Assembly: GCA_002753135.1 (NCBI GenBank)
Contig: PDZV01000006.1
Span: 1-64,000 of the forward strand
Origin: Magnetococcales bacterium WMHbinv6
GTDB lineage: Bacteria > Pseudomonadota > Magnetococcia > Magnetococcales > Magnetaquicoccaceae
DNA length: 64,000 nucleotides
Reading direction: 5' to 3'
Both the position numbers and the translations under genes were made by a program. Below, piece after piece: positions 42,221 to 52,495 of this stretch. Within the stretch, counting starts at the first letter, position 1; each line of letters starts with the position of its first letter. The notes under the pieces were generated by a model. It saw nothing but the letters and a program-made list of their open reading frames with translations. It had not been told where the DNA came from and did no database searches.

Positions 42221-42976
42221 CTACAAGTGCAAAATCTCTTTGGCCAAGGGAACAGTCAAGGGACGTTTGCGCAGCAGACCGGCCTCATCCAGTCGCTCCA
42301 GAGCGGTGATATAATCGGGAATGCGGCGTGGCAGGCGGCTGTGCAAAAATTTCAACAATTCGTCGCTGCAGCGCACCTGACGATCTTCCACCATTTTGCT
42401 CAGGATGGCAGCCAGCATTTCATCACTGGCCGCTTCCAGGGCAATGGCCGAACCCCATAATAATCGGGAACGCAAATCTTCGCGCAGCCCTGTCAACCAC
42501 TGCGGCGATTGCCGACTGGCCACCAGCATTCGTCCATCCGGCAATTCACGCATCCGGTTGAACAGATACAAGATTCCCTCCTGCAATACCGGTCGACACG
42601 TCACCTCCTGCAGATCATCCACCGCCACCAGGCGGCAGGCCGCATAACGGCTGAGAAACTGGCTCAACGCCTGTTCGGCACTCTCCTGCAGTTGCCCGTG
42701 CAGCGCCGCCAGATCCAGATAGATGGCCGACTCTTCCCCCTCCCGCGCACGACAATGGGCCACCGCCGCCTGCAACAAATGGCTTTTGCCGGTACCCGCT
42801 TCGCCGGTCAACAGCAGCACCGTCGCCCGTTGCATCATGGGGGGGTCACGGTTTTCTGCCAGCGCCAGCACCGCCTCTGCCGCACGCTGGTTGGCCTCGC
42901 CGACCACCAACGTGTGGAAAGTGCAGACCGGATTGAGCGGAAAGGGAAAAAGGGTCTGGATAGCAGAAGAGATCAT
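42221..42976 (-). CDS. hda: DnaA-like regulatory ATPase (Hda/HdaA)
   Basis: The 251 residues have the AAA+ core of DnaA without the DNA-binding domain IV. The Walker A motif is LTGEAGTGKSHLLQAA, Walker B is RLVAVDDLQEV, sensor 1 lies near LVASRQSP, and a C-terminal lid follows. Hda promotes hydrolysis of DnaA-ATP to prevent re-initiation. The start is ATG 42976 (MISSAIQTLFPF), overlapping pgsA by four bases; this pairing is common in alphaproteobacteria. Confidence 0.87.
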   Translation of the reverse strand: MISSAIQTLFPFPLNPVCTFHTLVVGEANQRAAEAVLALAENRDPPMMQRATVLLLTGEAGTGKSHLLQAAVAHCRAREGEESAIYLDLAALHGQLQESAEQALSQFLSRYAACRLVAVDDLQEVTCRPVLQEGILYLFNRMRELPDGRMLVASRQSPQWLTGLREDLRSRLLWGSAIALEAASDEMLAAILSKMVEDRQVRCSDELLKFLHSRLPRRIPDYITALERLDEAGLLRKRPLTVPLAKEILHL

Positions 42977-43521
42977 GCGGGCGTGATCCGTTCCTGTTCT
43001 GTGGCCAAACGACTCCAGCGCATCACATAGCTGCCCCCGGAGAGCAAGGTGGTCAGCGCCGTGATGCCGATCAGACCGTCCAGCCAGAGCGTGGCAAAAT
43101 GTCCGTCCGCCGTATACATCACCCAGGACAACAGTATCATCTGGTTGACCGTATTCCACTTGCTGATCCACAACGGCTCAATGCGCAAGGCACCGGTCAC
43201 CATGCGGAATACAATTGCCCCGCCAACAATCACCACATCGCGGGTGACCACCAACAAAGTCAACCACAGCGGCAACAACCCCAGCACCGTCAGGGTAATG
43301 TAGCCCGACAACAGCAACAGTTTATCTGCCAACGGATCCAGATGACGCCCCAGTTCGGTCTCCATCTGCCAGCGTTTGGCCACATAGCCATCCAGGGCAT
43401 CGGTCAATCCTGCGGCGACAAACAGCATCAACGCGGCTGACAACATGTTTTCCATCAACAGCCAGATCAGCATTGGCACGAAAACAATTCGCAACAATGA
43501 CAAAGCGTTGGGCAAATTCAT
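42973..43521 (-). CDS. pgsA: CDP-diacylglycerol-glycerol-3-phosphate 3-phosphatidyltransferase family
   Basis: The 182-residue membrane enzyme has the CDP-alcohol phosphotransferase motif spread over LTDALDGYVAKRWQMETELG and RHLDPLADK. The pattern is D-G-x2-A-(K)-R-x8-G-x3-D-x3-D with all acidic residues kept. It makes phosphatidylglycerol phosphate or a related lipid. About four to five helices are visible. It overlaps both neighbours by four bases. Confidence 0.88.
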   Translation of the reverse strand: MNLPNALSLLRIVFVPMLIWLLMENMLSAALMLFVAAGLTDALDGYVAKRWQMETELGRHLDPLADKLLLLSGYITLTVLGLLPLWLTLLVVTRDVVIVGGAIVFRMVTGALRIEPLWISKWNTVNQMILLSWVMYTADGHFATLWLDGLIGITALTTLLSGGSYVMRWSRLATEQERITPA

Positions 43522-44693
43522 GGCAACTGTAAAAGCAGTTCGATCCGATTCGACGGTGCAACAGCCGCCGCCGGAAGCGGTTCCACTTTGGCACCCAACT
43601 GTGTCAGCAACTCCTGCAATTGATTGTCCTGACCTTGATATTCAATCTGCAGGGTGGCCTCGGTGGCCCGTTCCTCGACAAATTTCAGACCGACCACACC
43701 GGCAGAGGAGCGCAATTTATTGGTAAACTGAGAAAATTGCGCCAATTTTGGCCCATGAATCACCCGCAGTTGTGCCACATGCTGCAACGCCGGATTAATG
43801 GTATGGGCCTGAATCCAACGGTCCGTGACCTGTTGCAACAGCTCCCGCACCAGTTGGGATGCCGGACATTTGCCTGTTTCACCGCTTTCGCTACAACGGG
43901 TTGCCCCCTCCTTTGCCGCCACACTGGCCACGATGGCCTCCTGGCTGCCACCGACACCCGACAGTTGTGCCTGCAGGCTTGGGGTGCCACTTTTGCCCTT
44001 GCCCGCTGCCGTGCTGCCGAGTTGGACTGCCAGCGTCCAGAGTTGATCCGTACCATAACGACCGGCAACCCACTGCTTGAGAGCCGGATCCGCAGCCTTG
44101 GCCCGTTCCCAGCTCAACTGGGCCATATCCTCCAGATCACCCAGGGGCATCACCATCGGCATGGCAAACGCCTTGCCCTCCTCCAGCAAGCTTTTCTGCA
44201 GCAGGGCCTCCACTGCTGCCGCTTCCCCTTCCGCACCACCCTGAGCGCGCACCAGCACCAAGACCGGCGGATGGCGGCTTTCATTATAGGCCATCCCTTT
44301 TTCCGCCAGGGCCGCCGCGATCCCTTTGGCCGAAAAGGTCACTTCCACCAAAATATGCAGGGCGTTACCCCGTTGGGTCTCGCCGACAATCTGCACCCGT
44401 TCGCTGAACCGTTTTCCCCCCTGCAACAAGCTGTTGAAAAAGCCCTTTTCTCTCTCCAGATCGGCGCGGGTGAACATGCGGCTGAACAGGCGTTCCAGAG
44501 CCATTTTTTTCGCCTTTTCCAGCCCGATACTACGTGGCTCTTGTCCTGCAGGCAGTGGCAACGGTACCACGGCTTCTGCCCCCACTTGATAAAAATGGTT
44601 TGGTTCAGCCCACACGGGCGTTGCCAACAGGGCCCATACCGCCAGGATGAATCCATATCCTTTTGCCAACCTCACGTGCCAATCCAGACCCAT
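43518..44693 (-). CDS. Exported DUF2066 protein
   Basis: The 391-residue product has a signal peptide (YGFILAVWALLATPVWA) and a DUF2066 layout. The N-terminal part has SIGLEKAKKMALERLFSRM, and the C-terminal part has RVIHGPKLAQFSQFTNKLRS and VEERATEATLQIEYQG. GGGAG lies seven bases before ATG 44693. DUF2066 genes commonly precede pgsA-hda in alphaproteobacteria; the function is unknown. The gap to gmhA is 28 bases. Confidence 0.83.
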   Translation of the reverse strand: MGLDWHVRLAKGYGFILAVWALLATPVWAEPNHFYQVGAEAVVPLPLPAGQEPRSIGLEKAKKMALERLFSRMFTRADLEREKGFFNSLLQGGKRFSERVQIVGETQRGNALHILVEVTFSAKGIAAALAEKGMAYNESRHPPVLVLVRAQGGAEGEAAAVEALLQKSLLEEGKAFAMPMVMPLGDLEDMAQLSWERAKAADPALKQWVAGRYGTDQLWTLAVQLGSTAAGKGKSGTPSLQAQLSGVGGSQEAIVASVAAKEGATRCSESGETGKCPASQLVRELLQQVTDRWIQAHTINPALQHVAQLRVIHGPKLAQFSQFTNKLRSSAGVVGLKFVEERATEATLQIEYQGQDNQLQELLTQLGAKVEPLPAAAVAPSNRIELLLQLP

Positions 44694-44721
44694 TTTTTTC
44701 TCCCGCAATATGGCAATACTG

Positions 44722-45312
44722 TCACTTGTCCGCCGGTTGAAACATGCCCCGTTCCACATAGGCACAGAGCAAATGACCAACCAGCAAATGGCTTTCCTGA
44801 ATTCTGGGCGTCACCGTGGCCGGAATCCGTAAACAGAGATGACACAAATCGGCCATTTTGCCCCCGGAAGAACCGGTCAGACCAACCACGGTGATACCCA
44901 TGCGCCGTGCCGTGGCAATGGCGTGCAAAATATTGGGTGAATTGCCTGAGGTACTGATGGCCAGGAGCAAATCCCCCGCTTTGCCATTGCCTTCAATCTG
45001 GCGGGAAAACAGCAGCTCATAGCCGTAATCGTTACCGATGGCGGTCATGATGGAGCTGTCGGTGGTCAGGGCGATGGCTGGCAGTGCCGGTCGATCAAAA
45101 TAGAAGCGACTGACCAGCTCCCCGGCAATATGTTGGGCATCGGCAGCCGAGCCGCCATTGCCGGCAATCAACAATTTGCCGCCCGCCCGATAGACCGCCA
45201 AGGTCAGCTCACACACCTGCACCAACTCGGCAAGCCAGGCCGCATCCTGCAACAGGCGTTGCTTGACGGCGATACTCTCCTGAATCTGTTCTTGCAAAAA
45301 TAAATCTTTCAT
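44722..45312 (-). CDS. gmhA: Phosphoheptose isomerase
   Basis: GmhA converts sedoheptulose-7-phosphate to heptose-7-phosphate, feeding HldE. The 196-residue SIS-domain protein shows LLIAGNGGSAADAQHIAGELV, LTTDSSIMTAIGNDYGY, AISTSGNSPNIL and LTGSSGGKMADL, plus the catalytic-type PRIQESHLLVGHLLC. It is away from the main heptose cluster, on the opposite strand, and overlaps the usp stop by four bases. Confidence 0.94.
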   Translation of the reverse strand: MKDLFLQEQIQESIAVKQRLLQDAAWLAELVQVCELTLAVYRAGGKLLIAGNGGSAADAQHIAGELVSRFYFDRPALPAIALTTDSSIMTAIGNDYGYELLFSRQIEGNGKAGDLLLAISTSGNSPNILHAIATARRMGITVVGLTGSSGGKMADLCHLCLRIPATVTPRIQESHLLVGHLLCAYVERGMFQPADK

Positions 45313-45776
45313 CGCGCCCTCACCACCAACACCGGCATATCTGCCAATTGTAATATTTTTTCGGTGGTGGCCCCCATCAACAGGTTGTCGATGCCAGAAG
45401 TGCCGCTGTAGCCAACGACCACCATCGAGGCTTTCACCTTTTTGGCCGTATGGATGATCTGGCTGGCAGGCACCCCATGGGCAACCACCGTTTCCAACCC
45501 CACTTTGAACTGCTTGGCCAATTTGGCCAAATCATGCTCTTTGACAAAAGCACGCATACTCTCTGCCGCCACCTCTAAAACCGGTCGCAAAACTTTTTTG
45601 ATCTCTTTTTTCTTTTGCGGTGGACTGGCCTCCGTGGTCACTTCGTGGACCACATGCAACAAATGCAGCCGACTCTCCGCCTGTCGTCCAATGACGAAAG
45701 CCGTGCGCACCGCTTCCAGACTGTCTCTGGTAAAATCAACTGCTACAACAATGGCTTGCAAATTATCTACGGTCAC
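45309..45776 (-). CDS. Universal stress protein (UspA family)
   Basis: The 155-residue Usp fold starts AIVVAVDFTRDSLEAV and ends VVGYSGTSGIDNLLMGATTEKIL with LADMPVLVV. The ATP-binding pattern G-x2-G-x9-G is followed by Ala rather than Ser/Thr. I favour GTG 45776 as start, with GGGGG upstream; the frame is open 14 codons further. It is first in the usp-gmhA-DUF2066-pgsA-hda run. Confidence 0.85.
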   Translation of the reverse strand: MTVDNLQAIVVAVDFTRDSLEAVRTAFVIGRQAESRLHLLHVVHEVTTEASPPQKKKEIKKVLRPVLEVAAESMRAFVKEHDLAKLAKQFKVGLETVVAHGVPASQIIHTAKKVKASMVVVGYSGTSGIDNLLMGATTEKILQLADMPVLVVRAR

Positions 45777-45835
45777 GGCATACCCCCACTGACAACACAA
45801 ATCCCCACCCAAACGCAAACTGCAGCTTGTGTCCT

Positions 45836-45926
45836 TACCGAAAGGTAGCTAAGATTAGCCGCAAGCCGGTCGCTTGGCAAGCGTGGGCGTATTACCGGTT
45901 CTCCGGGTCCGGTACGGATCGAACCG
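45836..45926. promoter_or_regulatory. Structured leader between usp and the Gln-rich protein gene
   Basis: This intergenic DNA contains several short perfect stems. TACC-GAAA-GGTA (45836-45847) has a GNRA loop. CAAGC (45862-45866) can pair with GCTTG (45872-45876), which can instead pair with a second CAAGC (45878-45882). TACCGG/CCGGTA (45893-45898 with 45909-45914) competes with CGGTTC/GAACCG (45896-45901 with 45921-45926). It fits no riboswitch class I can recall. It could act as a leader on either strand. Confidence 0.4.
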
Positions 45927-45962
45927 ATTACAAGAACCCGATTTTCAAGGAAAAACACTACA

Positions 45963-47000
45963 ATGAAAACCAGAATCCTGACCGCTTCTGCGTTGGCTGT
46001 ACTGCTCTCTTTCTCTGGAATGGCCGTTGCCGCCGATAATCCGAATGCGCGCAAACCCTTTGATGAGGCTGAATTCACCCGTTTCATGACCGATTATCCC
46101 GCCGTGACAAAATGGGTCACCGACAAGGGCAGTCGCTATGGCAGCAACAACTCACCCTGGGCTTTGTCCGGTCTGCGTTACGATAAGGAGCTGTTAAAAC
46201 ATCTGCAAAGTTCTGGATGGGATGCGGACCGTTTCTTTTATCTGCTGGACCATATCAATCTGGGTTTGATGACCACCCAGGCCGAAGCACAACAAGAGGC
46301 CCAGCGCACCCGGATCAATCAACAACGGGAAAAAGCGCAAGCCAGCCAAAAAGAAGAACAACAAAAATGGCAAGCCCAGAGGCAGGAGCAACAAAAAACC
46401 TCTCTGGAAACCGCCCGCGGGCAATGGTCCGCCCAACGGGAACGGGTTGCCCAGGATCCTTATCTGCCGCCCATGCAAAAGCAACAGATTCTGGCCCAAA
46501 TGGATCGCAACCAACCTTCGGCACAAACCAGCAATCCGGATCAGCAGCTTGCCAGCATGCGCCAACAACAACGGAACTGGATAAACGAACAGAAACAGCA
46601 AATTGCCGCCAATCCGACCATTCCGCCCGGACAAAAGCAGGAGATGCTGGCCCAGTTGGATCGTTCCATCGAAGGGGTCAACCAACCGAAAAATATGGCC
46701 CCCGCGCAACCCCCGGCCATGGTTGATCCGGCAGAACAACAGGCCAAAATGCAAGCCCAACACAAACAATGGATTGAAGAGCGGATGAAAGAGATTCGCG
46801 ACAATCCGATGATGCCGCCAGCACAAAAACAGCAAATGCTCGATCAACTGCAACTGTCGTTAAAAAATGCCGACAAAGCCGCGCAAATGGCCAAGGAACA
46901 ATCCGCCAAAGCGCAAAGCGGCCCCCTGCCTGCCCAGGAGAGCCAATTGATCAAAGCAAACCGGCAAAAACTGACCACACTGTTCTTCCCGGAAATGTAG
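45963..47000 (+). CDS. Secreted Gln-rich protein with three internal repeats, unknown function
   Basis: The 345-residue product has a signal peptide (residues 1-24, cleavage near AVAA-DN) and a small conserved-looking domain (about 32-103, DEAEFTRFMTDYPAVTKWV). A Gln/Ala/Lys-rich helical body follows. Three repeats begin at Trp155, Trp206 and Trp270. Each reads W-x(n)-(D/N)P-x(2)-PP-x-QKQ-x(2)-L-x-Q over about 28 residues (DPYLPPMQKQQILAQM; NPTIPPGQKQEMLAQL; NPMMPPAQKQQMLDQL). I recognise no family. AAGGA lies about ten bases before the ATG. It is monocistronic, ended by a strong hairpin. Confidence 0.75.
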   Translation: MKTRILTASALAVLLSFSGMAVAADNPNARKPFDEAEFTRFMTDYPAVTKWVTDKGSRYGSNNSPWALSGLRYDKELLKHLQSSGWDADRFFYLLDHINLGLMTTQAEAQQEAQRTRINQQREKAQASQKEEQQKWQAQRQEQQKTSLETARGQWSAQRERVAQDPYLPPMQKQQILAQMDRNQPSAQTSNPDQQLASMRQQQRNWINEQKQQIAANPTIPPGQKQEMLAQLDRSIEGVNQPKNMAPAQPPAMVDPAEQQAKMQAQHKQWIEERMKEIRDNPMMPPAQKQQMLDQLQLSLKNADKAAQMAKEQSAKAQSGPLPAQESQLIKANRQKLTTLFFPEM

Positions 47001-47008
47001 CCCAAGCC

Positions 47009-47061
47009 GCAGGAGAGCGACAGCAACCGGTTGCCGTCGCTCTCCTGCAGCGACTCTCTTT
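47009..47061. terminator. Long bidirectional terminator
   Basis: GCAGGAGAGCGAC (47009-47021) pairs perfectly with GTCGCTCTCCTGC (47036-47048). The loop is itself palindromic (GCAACCGGTTGC), so one long hairpin forms. A T-rich stretch follows at about 47056-47061. It lies between two convergent genes and probably ends both. Confidence 0.88.
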
Positions 47062-47062
47062 T

Positions 47063-50000
47063 TTATCCCTCTTTGTTACTGGCCAAAAAGAGCATCAATG
47101 CCTCCTGAATCGGCTGATAAAGCCGCCGCACATAGGCCAGCTCCTGGGTTGCTTCCTGCCAGCGCTGTTCTTTGACCGCTTCATACAGGGTGCGAGTCGG
47201 CTTCTGCAGAACCGGAAAAATGGTGTTGGCCATGCTCCCCTTCACCACGTGTGCGGTGGCCCGTGCCGATTGATAACTCTCTTGTTCAATGTCACGGTGC
47301 ATGGTGTTGAGCAATTCGATGAATTGTGCCGCCAGCAGTTCTGCCACTTCACGGAAATCCTCTTCCTGCAAACCGATGGAGCGCATCGATTTCAACAACG
47401 CCTCCATATCAACCTGTTCAACCACTTCGCTTGCCACTTTTTCAGCAGAGGGTGAGTCGTCCCGCTCCTGGTTAACCTCGTCTGCCGTGGTGCCTTTGCT
47501 GCCATCCTGACTCACTGCGTGCAACAAAGAAAACTGGCGCAAATAGTTGCGCAAATCGGTAATACTCACCGGTTTGGGCAAAAAACCGTCCATGCCACAG
47601 GCCTGAATGTTTTCTCGTGCTTGCGGTGTTACATCGGCGGTAAAGGCCACAATCGGCACCCGTCTGGAATGACCCAGGCTCTCTTCCAAGCCATGAATGG
47701 CACGTGTCGTCTCAAAGCCGTCCATGATCGGCATCTGGCAATCCATCAGAATCAGACTGAAACGTTTCTGGCGAAAATGGTCGATCGCCTCCTGACCGCT
47801 CAAGGCCGTATTGATCTGATCGCTGCGAAAACCCAAATTGAGCAACATGCCCCGGGTGACGATCAAATTGGCCTGCTGGTCATCGACAATCAAAATTCTG
47901 CCTTCGGCACGCCAGCTGACCGGCTCCTGGGGCGACATCTCCCCGGCTGTCCGCTGATGGTTGCCCTTGTTCTGAATCAACCATTCAATGGCCGCCAATA
48001 ACCGTTCGGCATTGATCGGTTTTTTCAAACAAATGGCTGTGCCGGGCAACTCTGTGGCCTGATCCCAACCCTGATCCAACAGGTCGGTCAACAGGATAAA
48101 GCGCAACTCGGTGTTGCAATTAAGCAATTGCTGGAACTCGCGGCGATGGCTGAGCCCCGGTTTTTGGTTGCAGAGTACCAACTGATAGGGTTCCCCACGG
48201 GCATCGGCCTCCTGCAACAACAGGGGGGCATGTTCCACCTCAACGGCATGATCCAGGCGTGCGCCATGCGACAACAGCGCATCCTCCACCAAAGTGCGCA
48301 ACAAGCCATCCTGGGCGACCGCCAGAACCCGCATATTTTTCAGGTCCTGTTCTTTTTCGTGGCGGTTGTAGGAAAGATGCTGTTTTTCCAGCCGAACTGT
48401 AAAATAAAAAACCGAACCAGAGGGGGTATCCGGATTGCTGTCAACCTGGATTTCTCCTCCCATCATCTGCACCAGATGTTTGCAAATCGACAAGCCCAAA
48501 CCGGTCCCTTCGTGACGGCGGGTGGAAGAGGAGTCCACCTGGGTAAAACGTCCGAATATTTTCTGCCGATCCTCGGCGACAATGCCGATACCGGAATCCC
48601 GCACCTCAAACAACAAATCGATCCCTTGCTCATCCCCACTCACCGGACCGCCATACAACTCGACCGTTCCCCCCTCCGGGGTAAATTTGATGGCGTTACC
48701 CAGCAGATTGATGAATATCTGTTTCAAACGGATGGGATCACCACGGACCGCCGTATAGGCAACATCCGGAAAAAAGGCAGTCAGTTCAATCCCTTTGGTA
48801 TGGGCCAACGGGGCAACTGTCATCGCCGCTTCATAGACCATGCGACGCAGATCAAAATCCACCTTGTCCAACACCAGCTGTTTGCCGTCCATTTTGGAAA
48901 AATCAAGCACATTGTTGATCAACGTCAACAAGGTCTGACCGGCACCCAAGGCCAGTTCCACCCGTTCCCGGTCTGGCAGGCGAATATCGGCACTGCGCAG
49001 CAACTCCAACATGCCGAGAATCACATTCATCGGGGTGCGAATTTCATGGCTCATGGTGGCCAGAAACAGGCTCTTGGCCTGACTCGCCGCCAGCGCCTGA
49101 TCCCGTGCCACGGCCAGATCGTTGGTGCGTTCTCGCACCTGTTCTTCCAACGAAGCGGCCAAATTGCGCAACGCCCGGTGCGAAACGCTCAAGGTATCCA
49201 ATAACGATCGGAAGGCCGAGGCCAACTCACCCACCTCATCGGGAGAAGAGACATCAATTTGTACATTCTCCTCCCCGGCGGCAATACGATGAATGGTCTG
49301 GGTCAAGTGGCGAATCGGTCGGGTCAGGCGACGGGTGGTAAGGACAATCAAAATGCTCAACACCAGCGCAATGGCCAGTGAGATGTGCAATATCTCCTGC
49401 CAATAGTTGCGAATTCCTTGTACCATGGCGGTATTGGAGGCAAAGGCCACCATCAGAATATGGCGATTCGGCGTGACGGGATCAAAATAGATGCGTTGAT
49501 ACACCAAATGCAGGCCCTGTTCTGCCAGGGCCACCCGGACGGGAGAGTCGACATAAATCGACATTTGATGCCGCATACGGGGTGCCGATTCGCTATCCGT
49601 CCACAATTGCGGCAGGTCCGGAAACATTGCCTGTATCCGATTGCTGCCAGCCACCCCATCAGGCCAATTCCGACCAATGCGTTGCGCGCCCTGTTGCAAT
49701 AAGACTTTTGCCTGGGCTTTGAGGTACAAGATATTTCCTGCCCCATCTGCCAGCAAGAGTTGCACCTCATCGCTTGCCTGGCGAAACAGGGTATTGGCCA
49801 ACAGGCGAAAATTTTCCCGAATGGTCAAAATGCCCGACCGATCCTCTTCCGAGGTAAATACGGGAACCGCCATCTGCAACACCGCATCCCCGCTGCCCGA
49901 TGCGGTTGCGGAAGTGGTGCCATCATTCTGTTCAAGCAAGGTAAACTGGTTGGGATTCAGGCGTAACGCCTTCTGGAAATAGAGTTGGTTCTGTTCCGAA

Positions 50001-50464
50001 CGCAGATCTTTCTCGGCGACACGTTCGAGCATGCCATTGCTGCGCCGTTCAACCCGCAGCAACTCCCGACCCTCCGGTGCCGTACTGAGCAGAGCAATAT
50101 CGCGATAGGTCAGATGCAGCCCCATGATGGAAAAAAAATCGTTGGCTACAATATTTTTGGCCTCTGCCGAATCCTGTCGGTAACCGGCTTGCAGAGAGGG
50201 TGCATGCAGCTCTCCGGCCAGACGCAGCACGGAACTGGAATCGGCCAGCATGATCAGCGTATTGCGCAACTCCAGCACGTGATGCACGTAAAGGTTGGAT
50301 TTGCGCCGCAATTCGTTGGAAATGTCGGAAAAAGATTGCTCCCGCAACAACTTTTCCACACTGGAAAGCGTGACGTAACCTACCAGAGCTACGCCCGACA
50401 TGGTAAAGATCAGGGTCAATAAGGCAATCTTGGCAGGCAATTTCAGAAGTGGTTTAATCATCAT
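47063..50464 (-). CDS. Hybrid sensor histidine kinase with two receiver domains and HPt (BarA-type)
   Basis: The 1133-residue kinase has helix 1 (about 12-33), a large periplasmic sensor (about 35-355) and helix 2 (about 358-378). HAMP, HisKA with HEIRTPMN near 471, and HATPase_c with NLLGNAIKF and GTGLGLSICKH follow. The first receiver (about 711-822) lacks the phosphorylated Asp: the strand reads LVLCNQ. The second (about 851-972) is intact (ILIVDDQQAN, LILMDCQMPIMDG, LPKPVS). The HPt domain (about 1015-1130) has AHVVKGS. ATG ATG at 50464/50461 starts it. No cognate response regulator is adjacent, so output goes to an unlinked partner. Confidence 0.9.
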   Translation of the reverse strand: MMIKPLLKLPAKIALLTLIFTMSGVALVGYVTLSSVEKLLREQSFSDISNELRRKSNLYVHHVLELRNTLIMLADSSSVLRLAGELHAPSLQAGYRQDSAEAKNIVANDFFSIMGLHLTYRDIALLSTAPEGRELLRVERRSNGMLERVAEKDLRSEQNQLYFQKALRLNPNQFTLLEQNDGTTSATASGSGDAVLQMAVPVFTSEEDRSGILTIRENFRLLANTLFRQASDEVQLLLADGAGNILYLKAQAKVLLQQGAQRIGRNWPDGVAGSNRIQAMFPDLPQLWTDSESAPRMRHQMSIYVDSPVRVALAEQGLHLVYQRIYFDPVTPNRHILMVAFASNTAMVQGIRNYWQEILHISLAIALVLSILIVLTTRRLTRPIRHLTQTIHRIAAGEENVQIDVSSPDEVGELASAFRSLLDTLSVSHRALRNLAASLEEQVRERTNDLAVARDQALAASQAKSLFLATMSHEIRTPMNVILGMLELLRSADIRLPDRERVELALGAGQTLLTLINNVLDFSKMDGKQLVLDKVDFDLRRMVYEAAMTVAPLAHTKGIELTAFFPDVAYTAVRGDPIRLKQIFINLLGNAIKFTPEGGTVELYGGPVSGDEQGIDLLFEVRDSGIGIVAEDRQKIFGRFTQVDSSSTRRHEGTGLGLSICKHLVQMMGGEIQVDSNPDTPSGSVFYFTVRLEKQHLSYNRHEKEQDLKNMRVLAVAQDGLLRTLVEDALLSHGARLDHAVEVEHAPLLLQEADARGEPYQLVLCNQKPGLSHRREFQQLLNCNTELRFILLTDLLDQGWDQATELPGTAICLKKPINAERLLAAIEWLIQNKGNHQRTAGEMSPQEPVSWRAEGRILIVDDQQANLIVTRGMLLNLGFRSDQINTALSGQEAIDHFRQKRFSLILMDCQMPIMDGFETTRAIHGLEESLGHSRRVPIVAFTADVTPQARENIQACGMDGFLPKPVSITDLRNYLRQFSLLHAVSQDGSKGTTADEVNQERDDSPSAEKVASEVVEQVDMEALLKSMRSIGLQEEDFREVAELLAAQFIELLNTMHRDIEQESYQSARATAHVVKGSMANTIFPVLQKPTRTLYEAVKEQRWQEATQELAYVRRLYQPIQEALMLFLASNKEG

Positions 50465-50572
50465 GTGTCTACGACCAAGTTTGACCAAAGGAAACAGTGA
50501 CACAATACACAACTGTAACTCATCTTGACAGCGTTTTTCATCATCCATCGAATATTTGAGGTGCAACGGCTT

Positions 50573-52495
50573 ATGGCTTTGATCGGTATGCGCGAAGTAT
50601 CGATCCGTTTCGGCGGACCAACCATTCTGGAACAGGTTAATTTTGCAGTGGAACCCGGCGAACGGGTCTGTCTGGTCGGACGCAACGGCAGCGGCAAGAC
50701 CACCTTGCTGAAGCTTTTGGCTGGTGAATTGCGACCCGATAGCGGTGAAGTGGTGCGGCAAAAAGGGATGCGCGTTGCCCGCCTGGAGCAGGAGATTCCG
50801 GAGGGGCTTTCCGGCACGGTGCTGGAGGTGGTCGCCGACGGTTTGGGCAAGCTGCGGCATGCCCTGACCGCCTACGACCAGGCCAGTCGCCAACTGGCGC
50901 ACGGCAGCGATGAGGCGGCGCTGGCGGCGATGAGCAAAGCCCAGGAGTTGTTGGATCATCAGGAGGGTTGGGCGGTACAGCAACGGGTGGCGGAACTGCT
51001 CTCTCTGCTCTCCCTGCCCACCGATCTGGCATTTGCCACCCTTTCCGGCGGTCTGAAACGGCGGGTGTTGCTGGCCAGAGCCCTGATCACTGACCCTGAT
51101 CTGCTGCTCCTGGACGAACCGACCAACCATCTGGATCTGGAAGCCATTCAATGGCTGGAAGATTTTTTCCGGGCCGACGGCACGACACGCACGTTTCGTG
51201 GCACTCTCTTTTTTATCTCCCATGATCGTCTGTTTCTCAACCGTCTGGCCAGCCGCATTCTCGAGCTGGATCGGGGACGATTAAGCGACTGGCCCGGCGA
51301 CTATGCCACCTATCGGCGGCGCAAAGAGGCCGTCCTGGAGGCCGAACTGCAACAACAGGCCCAATTTGATAAAAAATTGGCCCAGGAAGAGAGTTGGATC
51401 CGGCAGGGTATACAAGCCCGACGCACCCGCAACGAAGGTCGGGTACGGGCCCTGGAACGTCTGCGCCGCGAACGACAGCAACGACGGGAACAGCTCGGCG
51501 TGGCCAAACTGCAACTGGAAAGCGGTGAACTCTCTGGCCGCCTGGTCATCGAAGCGGAGCGCATCTCCTATGATTATGCAGGGGTGCCGGTCATCCGCCA
51601 CTTTTCCACCCTTATTCAGCGCGGCGATAAAATCGGTATCATCGGGGCCAACGGCGTGGGCAAAACCACCCTGTTGCGCCTGCTGCTCAACGAATTGCGC
51701 CCCACGCAAGGCAGCGTTCGCCTGGGCACCCGCTTGGAAGTGGCCTATTTTGATCAATTGCGCAGCCGACTGGATGAAAACAAAACGGTGATCGATGCCG
51801 TGGCCGATGGGCAACAGGAGATTGTTTTCCATGGCCGACGCCGCCATATCATGGGTTATCTGCAGGATTTTCTCTTCAGCGGTGAACGGGCCCGTTCACC
51901 GGTCGGTATTCTTTCCGGCGGTGAGCGCAATCGCTTGTTGTTGGCCCGCCTTTTTCTGCGCCCCTCCAACGTGCTGGTCATGGATGAACCAACCAACGAT
52001 CTGGATGTGGAGACGCTCGAACTGCTGGAAGCCTTGCTGGTCGACTATCCCGGCACGCTGCTGCTGGTCAGCCACGATCGTACCTTTTTGAACCATGTGG
52101 TCACCTCGACGCTGGTTTTTGAGGGAGGGGGGCAGGTCAATGAATATGTCGGCGGCTACGACGATTGGCTGGCCCAGCGCCCGCCGGTCGCCGCGCAGAC
52201 CACCGCCAGCGAAGAGAACAGCCGTCGATTGAAAAATGAACCCCGGCAACGGGAACGCAAACGTCGCCTGACCTTCAAGGAGCAGCAGGAGTTGACCGCC
52301 CTGCCCAGCCAGATCGAGGCCTGGGAAGAGGAACAACAGCAGCTGCATCAACAAGTTGCCGACCCTGCCTTTTACCGCCGTGCTGGTGAAGAGATCATCG
52401 CCGCCAGCAGTCGTCTGAACCAACTCGAACAGCATCTGGCAGAGGCCTACGAACGCTGGCAACAGCTCGAAGAGCTGGCCGAAGAGCGTGGATAA
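50573..52495 (+). CDS. uup: ABC-F ATPase, Uup type
   Basis: The 640-residue soluble protein has two ABC domains. Walker A motifs are VGRNGSGKTTLL and IGANGVGKTTLL; signatures are LSGGLKRRV and LSGGERNRL; Walker B regions are LLLDEPTNHLD and LVMDEPTNDLD. A linker carries RTRNEGRVRALERLR. The C-terminal coiled coil (about 555-640) marks Uup rather than other ABC-F members. It acts on ribosomes or branched DNA intermediates. ATG 50573 is chosen over upstream codons; srkA follows after 23 bases. Confidence 0.93.
   Translation: MALIGMREVSIRFGGPTILEQVNFAVEPGERVCLVGRNGSGKTTLLKLLAGELRPDSGEVVRQKGMRVARLEQEIPEGLSGTVLEVVADGLGKLRHALTAYDQASRQLAHGSDEAALAAMSKAQELLDHQEGWAVQQRVAELLSLLSLPTDLAFATLSGGLKRRVLLARALITDPDLLLLDEPTNHLDLEAIQWLEDFFRADGTTRTFRGTLFFISHDRLFLNRLASRILELDRGRLSDWPGDYATYRRRKEAVLEAELQQQAQFDKKLAQEESWIRQGIQARRTRNEGRVRALERLRRERQQRREQLGVAKLQLESGELSGRLVIEAERISYDYAGVPVIRHFSTLIQRGDKIGIIGANGVGKTTLLRLLLNELRPTQGSVRLGTRLEVAYFDQLRSRLDENKTVIDAVADGQQEIVFHGRRRHIMGYLQDFLFSGERARSPVGILSGGERNRLLLARLFLRPSNVLVMDEPTNDLDVETLELLEALLVDYPGTLLLVSHDRTFLNHVVTSTLVFEGGGQVNEYVGGYDDWLAQRPPVAAQTTASEENSRRLKNEPRQRERKRRLTFKEQQELTALPSQIEAWEEEQQQLHQQVADPAFYRRAGEEIIAASSRLNQLEQHLAEAYERWQQLEELAEERG

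Follow-up and report, generated by a model that had tools for sequence, protein, structure and literature searches.

The window, a stretch of 64,000 nucleotides of Magnetococcales DNA, contains an open reading frame at 45963..47000 (+) whose 345-amino-acid product had been described, from the sequence alone, as a secreted protein with three internal repeats and no recognised family. The locus raises the question of whether the repeats are real, what the protein is related to, and what an exported protein of this construction might do. The gene was taken from the list of open reading frames and aligned as one of 26 full-length family members, itself included. This alignment left out L027, in which a contig end cuts the gene, five second records of included genes (L028-L032), and the short protein L033, which is described separately below.

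Layout of the protein

Residues 1-24 (45963..46034) were identified by eye as a signal peptide, with the sequence MKTR, a hydrophobic run and AVA-A-D, in line with the earlier prediction of secretion. The signal peptide is followed by an N-terminal helical domain at residues 31-105 (46053..46277), defined by conservation, hhalign and structural models, in which WxxxR(F/Y)(F/H)Y is present in 26/26 members. The sequence-only reading had called this a short N-terminal domain; a domain is present, but it is the most conserved part of the protein and is common to another family. Residues 106-151 (46278..46415) form a variable, long Gln-rich helix, lying within a predicted helix of residues 88-163 and having a column identity of 0.22. 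The hairpin repeats R1 (residues 152-183; 46416..46511), R2 (residues 204-235; 46572..46667) and R3 (residues 268-299; 46764..46859) follow, each delimited by the model, the family alignment and profile self-comparison. The C-terminal motif, LPxxExxLIxxNxxKLxxLF, occupies residues 320-345 (46920..46997). All of these features are on the + strand. Cys is absent from the protein, and Gln makes up 9-17% of the precursor.

The mean column identity was highest in the N domain (0.46), followed by R1 (0.42), R2 (0.39), R3 (0.37) and the C motif (0.35). The linkers are poorly conserved, with a mean column identity of 0.12-0.17.

Statistics and conservation of the repeats

The best ungapped 30-residue BLOSUM62 self-match scored 87 between R2 and R3, 76 between R1 and R2, and 56 between R1 and R3, compared with a mean of 37.4 (sd 4.9, maximum 60) in the shuffled body (n=200). 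The R1/R3 match is approximately 3.8 sd over the mean. As this pair alone falls below the shuffle maximum, the family profile decides for three repeats; its self-comparison gave 99.5% (E 9e-23) for R1R2 against R2R3 and 94% for R1 against R3. The three internal repeats are thus real, with two of the three self-match pairs exceeding the shuffles and the family profile supporting the full set. The loss of the repeat pattern in homologues, which the sequence-only reading had named as the observation that would count against it, did not occur: all three repeats are retained in 26/26 full-length members, and the copy number is constant at three.

The loop core, [ND]xx[ILMVY]xxx[QEDR][KR], is present in 26/26 members in R1, 26/26 in R2 and 25/26 in R3. 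The Trp that had been proposed as a conserved position is retained in 19/26 members in R2 and 24/26 in R3, and in 6/26 in R1, whose W155 is shifted by one residue relative to the register of W206 and W270. The repeat-to-repeat distances are 52 and 64 residues in the window protein and 45-69 and 53-79 across the family, so the regular spacing that had been noted did not hold. Judged from the aligned members, the constant feature of the repeats is the loop, and neither the Trp nor the spacing.

Family and structure searches

Searches of Pfam, NCBIfam and PDB sequences with the protein and with the family profile gave no convincing match. All Pfam and NCBIfam matches of the single protein were under the cut-offs, and among the 26 members no more than two hit any listed Pfam model and no more than four any NCBIfam model, with a best E of 0.007. 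The best PDB match of the full family profile was the coiled coil of vimentin (E 0.022), and no lipase foldase (Lif) was reported at E up to 10. A convincing match to a known family, the other outcome that would have counted against the sequence-only reading, was not found in these searches, and the earlier assignment to no recognised family stands. A literature search for a lipase chaperone in Magnetococcales found nothing, and the protein is not described in the passages of PMC6783814 that were consulted. The protein belongs to a real, lineage-specific exported family that is unnamed in the libraries searched.

An AlphaFold2 model, built from five sequences, had a mean pLDDT of 73.3 and a pTM of 0.39. 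Each repeat was modelled as two helices joined at an N-P-x-x-P-P loop (a helix-NPxxPP-helix hairpin), with a mean pLDDT of 82-90 in the blocks of ten residues composing R1, R2 and R3; with five sequences and this pTM, the model does not fix the overall arrangement of the hairpins. Foldseek analysis of the full model returned 91 matches, none at E 0.001 or better, headed by a phage ejectosome protein (E 0.42) and the BibA adhesin (E 0.61). VIA-align analysis of the full model gave no Z of at least 8; the best matches, with Z up to 7.8, were unrelated helical proteins, and no Lif entry was among the 50 matches listed. When modelled alone, the N domain reached a pLDDT of 77.2 and a pTM of 0.69; its best Foldseek match had an E of 1.1 and VIA-align gave no Z of at least 5. 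The absence of a structural match to the N domain does not show a new fold. The repeats had been suggested to form a helical unit for binding or assembly in the periplasm or outside. The predicted hairpins, the conservation of the repeats between free linkers and the export signal are compatible with a helical repeat that would serve for binding in the periplasm.

A core shared with a short alphaproteobacterial family

A gene on an alphaproteobacterial contig (L033) encodes a 186-amino-acid protein matching the N domain, with an E of 1.2e-4 in its own genome and a score of 22.5 bits, compared with at most 3.4 bits in the 823 shuffles reported of 1000. As the patterns that led to L033 included WDADRFFY, the motif was selected in L033 itself; its relatives were found with the L033 protein and not with the pattern. 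With that protein as the query, 100 of the 153 genomes of its order matched, including its own. In an alignment of the best 20 of the 100 matches, the corresponding motif, W...(R/H)FF(Y/F), is present in 20/20. Comparison of the short family with the Magnetococcales family by hhalign gave 97.7% for the N domain and 69% for the C motif, with reversed controls at 0.1% and 0.3%, respectively, and 0.2% for the repeats.

The short family is therefore like the Magnetococcales protein in its N domain and C motif, and unlike it in lacking the repeats, in having an N-terminal hydrophobic stretch that resembles an anchor, and in having a HAD-IIA hydrolase gene upstream. With the N domain and C motif shared and the repeats not, both ends belong to a common core, and it is only in the Magnetococcales form that repeats are present between them. 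On this comparison of sequences, the long helix and the repeats sit between the two ends of what appears to be an older core, and the repeats would have been gained rather than lost. Two proteobacterial lineages have in common a conserved domain that bears no Pfam or NCBIfam name; no Pfam or NCBIfam match over the cut-off was found in the two short proteins scanned.

The gene of the short family, whose proteins have approximately 186 amino acids, lies directly after the HAD-IIA hydrolase gene in 21/21 loci (L033:4089-5561 and L212-L231, of which L033 and L212 are one genome). The HAD gene of L033 matches TIGR01459, and those of the other loci cluster with it by BLAST. Another gene family adjoins in 12/21 loci; the one member of it that was scanned had no Pfam or NCBIfam match.

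Comparison with the lipase foldase and other periplasmic chaperones

The lead to Lif arose from Foldseek, in which two Lif entries were present at ranks 7 and 18 (E 1.8 and 2.9). A Lif set was assembled from 28 matches; L114 and L115 were left aside, and L105 and L112 were excluded as over-long or in the wrong frame. The remaining 24 sequences were cut to the last 300 residues; the scan of Lif sequences with the repeat profile used 26 uncut sequences. All of the hhalign comparisons were one against one, without calibration against a library.

When each repeat alone was compared with the 24-sequence Lif alignment, all three aligned to the same Lif hairpin, R1 with a probability of 55.3%, R2 of 35.5% and R3 of 50.4%; the controls gave 0.1-0.4% (reversed Lif), 0.4-2.4% (Spy) and 0.2-0.7% (Skp). 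The three repeats together gave 51.1%, no higher than one alone. This Lif hairpin, I-x-N-x-x-L-S-x-x-x-(K/R)-x-x-x-I/L-x-x-L, was the best fit of each repeat among the profiles tried. Lif has helical hairpins in its extended helical domain and in mini-domain 2. The whole family against Lif gave 50.1% with a score of 39.5; the reversed comparisons scored 15.5 and 16.6, and 60 column shuffles reached 26.0 at most. The repeat profile matched 3/26 Lif sequences with at least 8 bits, and 0/520 shuffled sequences, 0/29 Spy and 0/30 Skp. In an unprompted search of 177,635 PDB sequences with a profile built from 76 repeats, the lipase chaperone 2es4 ranked first among two matches, with an E of 1.3. 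The N domain showed no likeness to Lif (0.7%).

Spy/CpxP (LTXXQ, PF07813) and Skp/OmpH (PF03938) are small helical periplasmic chaperones. The whole family gave 4.7% against Spy (score 25.0 over 12 columns) and 19.3% against Skp (score 31.6 over 21 columns), the latter being not far behind Lif in score. PF07813, PF03938 and the Lif family PF03280 were all absent from the four Pfam matches to the protein at E up to 10, a search in which filters drop most matches above 0.1. Similarly, neither PF03280 nor PF07813 was among the 25 families listed, of 27, when the 26 members were scanned with E up to 1. A match to the Spy-type LTXXQ family was observed on the same contig at C27:77775-78044, outside the window and approximately 31 kb from the gene.

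PF03280 matches were present in 23/299 genomes, all of them outside Magnetococcales. The cognate lipase gene usually lies beside the Lif gene; no lipase gene is adjacent in the window, where uspA, gmhA and a kinase gene surround the gene, and the neighbours at the other loci were compared with the window proteins. According to the relevant passage of PMC7046727, the foldase motif of Lif, RXXFDY(F/C)L(S/T)A, is located in mini-domain 1. The strict motif was found in 0/26 members, a weak test since the pattern finds just 3/24 Lifs. The looser pattern [FYM][DE][YF]xL was found in 17/24 Lifs and in 0/26 members within the first 115 residues. Membership of the Lif family was rejected, given the lack of a PF03280 match and of the foldase motif.

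The three-hairpin protein and Lif (PF03280; 2es4) are alike in being all-helical, extended and periplasmic, the last presumptively for the three-hairpin protein. They differ in that the former has another N-terminal domain, a cleavable-looking signal peptide and, in the window, no adjacent lipase gene. The Lif comparisons are consistent and point weakly in one direction, none being significant in a library-wide search, and convergence may also produce a helix-loop-helix capped by Asn and Pro.

Distribution and inheritance

The protein query matched 27 of 61 genomes, including its own. The 26-row profile matched 27/48 Magnetococcales genomes, with one copy apiece. The gene is present in 6/7 genomes of its own genus, 8/11 of the sister genus, and 4/5 and 7/8 of two other families, as well as in the sole members of two further families; the remaining Magnetococcales families had matches in 0/15 genomes. 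The match in Candidatus Magnetaquicoccus inordinatus UR-1 (L029), of the same genus, has 77% identity. Among 398 genomes of the phylum, including those of the order, no full-length copy was seen outside Magnetococcales, the other profile matches being nine partial ones with E from 1e-4 to 0.01. No match to the protein was present in plasmid records.

In the gene tree, members of a genus or family cluster together, the pattern that vertical inheritance with losses would give, although the deep joins are unsure owing to two long branches and several open forks. In a genome of the same genus without the gene (G003, locus L197), a kinase gene (66% identical) adjoins gmhA, and the gene and uspA are missing between them. 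This arrangement fits the loss of both, although the sequence after gmhA does not match the next gene of the window. Given this apparent loss, the gene is probably dispensable in some relatives. At 15 gmhA-like loci of 12 genomes lacking the gene, no hidden homologue was found beside gmhA among open reading frames of at least 60 amino acids within approximately 1.5 kb.

Neighbouring genes and possible functions

The divergent neighbour, at 45309..45818 (-), is uspA, a universal stress protein (Usp by Pfam). Beyond it lies a gene at 44722-45312 that we take, from its sequence, to be gmhA. The convergent neighbour, at 47063..50599 (-), encodes a hybrid sensor histidine kinase by Pfam. An overlapping run of genes at 42221-45818 (-) comprises uspA, gmhA, a DUF2066 protein, a phosphatidyltransferase-like gene and an Hda-like gene, the last two identified by eye; L077 has matches to these five genes in the same order.

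We tentatively propose that the protein is a helical chaperone or scaffold that binds a client in the periplasm, Lif-like in action yet not a Lif. The proposal builds on the conservation of the family, the open reading frame with its export signal, the shared ends with the repeats between them and the predicted hairpins, from which we infer the periplasmic location, the client binding and the chaperone role. An all-helical, elongated protein would be exported, presumably to the periplasm, with its conserved N domain and C motif representing the older core that is also found in the short family. Between the ends of this core, the Magnetococcales form would have its long helix and its three helix-NPxxPP-helix hairpins; carried on flexible linkers, these hairpins could grip a client, secreted or in the envelope, much as the Lif helices contact lipase. 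A more specific version, which we consider rather doubtful, is that an envelope domain gained three foldase-type hairpins and became a second, independent Lif-like steric chaperone for a non-lipase client, with the hairpin as a portable client-gripping module. If the hairpin is indeed a module reused by exported proteins, some steric chaperones may still await discovery, and this gene would be a compact three-copy example.

The hairpins could instead assemble with each other and not with a client, as part of a coat, spacer or adhesive rod. The Gln content, the long helix, the three repeats on flexible linkers and the ejectosome and adhesin matches that head the Foldseek results are in keeping with such a structural envelope protein. 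However, no anchor motif was seen by eye, and rods and adhesins often differ in repeat copy number, which is constant here; we regard this explanation as unlikely, if somewhat less so than an independent steric chaperone. The neighbouring genes suggest two other roles. CpxP regulates CpxA by binding its sensor domain, and by analogy the protein could be a periplasmic accessory that binds the sensor domain of the convergent kinase and sets its activity. A kinase gene is convergent in 11/26 loci, at a distance of 34-959 bp, and the kinase of the window contains a HAMP domain and matches a sensor-domain model below the cut-off. The pairing is confined to one family, however; in two other families the gene lies directly after gmhA (4/4 and 4/7 loci) without a convergent kinase alongside, and the protein shows no LTXXQ match and the low Spy comparison given above, which makes this role very unlikely. 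The other neighbour is gmhA, which lies within one gene in 14/26 loci across three families (in 8 immediately upstream and co-oriented, in 6 beyond a divergent uspA) and would link the protein to lipopolysaccharide heptose supply or surface assembly. These neighbour counts were made by hand against the window proteins only, with contig ends shortening some loci. The adjacency may be merely inherited position, and GmhA is a cytoplasmic enzyme, whereas the three-hairpin protein is exported. Furthermore, a gmhA match was present in 12/12 gene-less genomes searched (of 21), 10 of them at 45-78% identity, so gmhA was not co-lost there; in G024 and G046 the identity is just 38%, and the match may represent a different protein of this kind. 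A heptose-related role is accordingly the one to which we assign the lowest likelihood.

Promoter, leader and terminator

A weak sigma70-like promoter pair, TTGTGT-17-TAAGAT, was identified by eye at 45827..45855 (+). The consensus TTGTRT-17-TAAGAT is present upstream in 6/6 same-genus members having the gene, and the consensus promoter scan did not report the pair. A structured leader had been proposed, but the sequence at 45815-45965 is no more stably folded than its shuffles (z 0.11) and matches no Rfam model, which gives no support to a riboswitch or other RNA element in the leader. The very strong terminator that had been noted downstream was confirmed as a hairpin at 47006..47051 (+) of -35 kcal/mol (z -5.86), though its T run, at 47059-47064, begins 7 nt past the stem.
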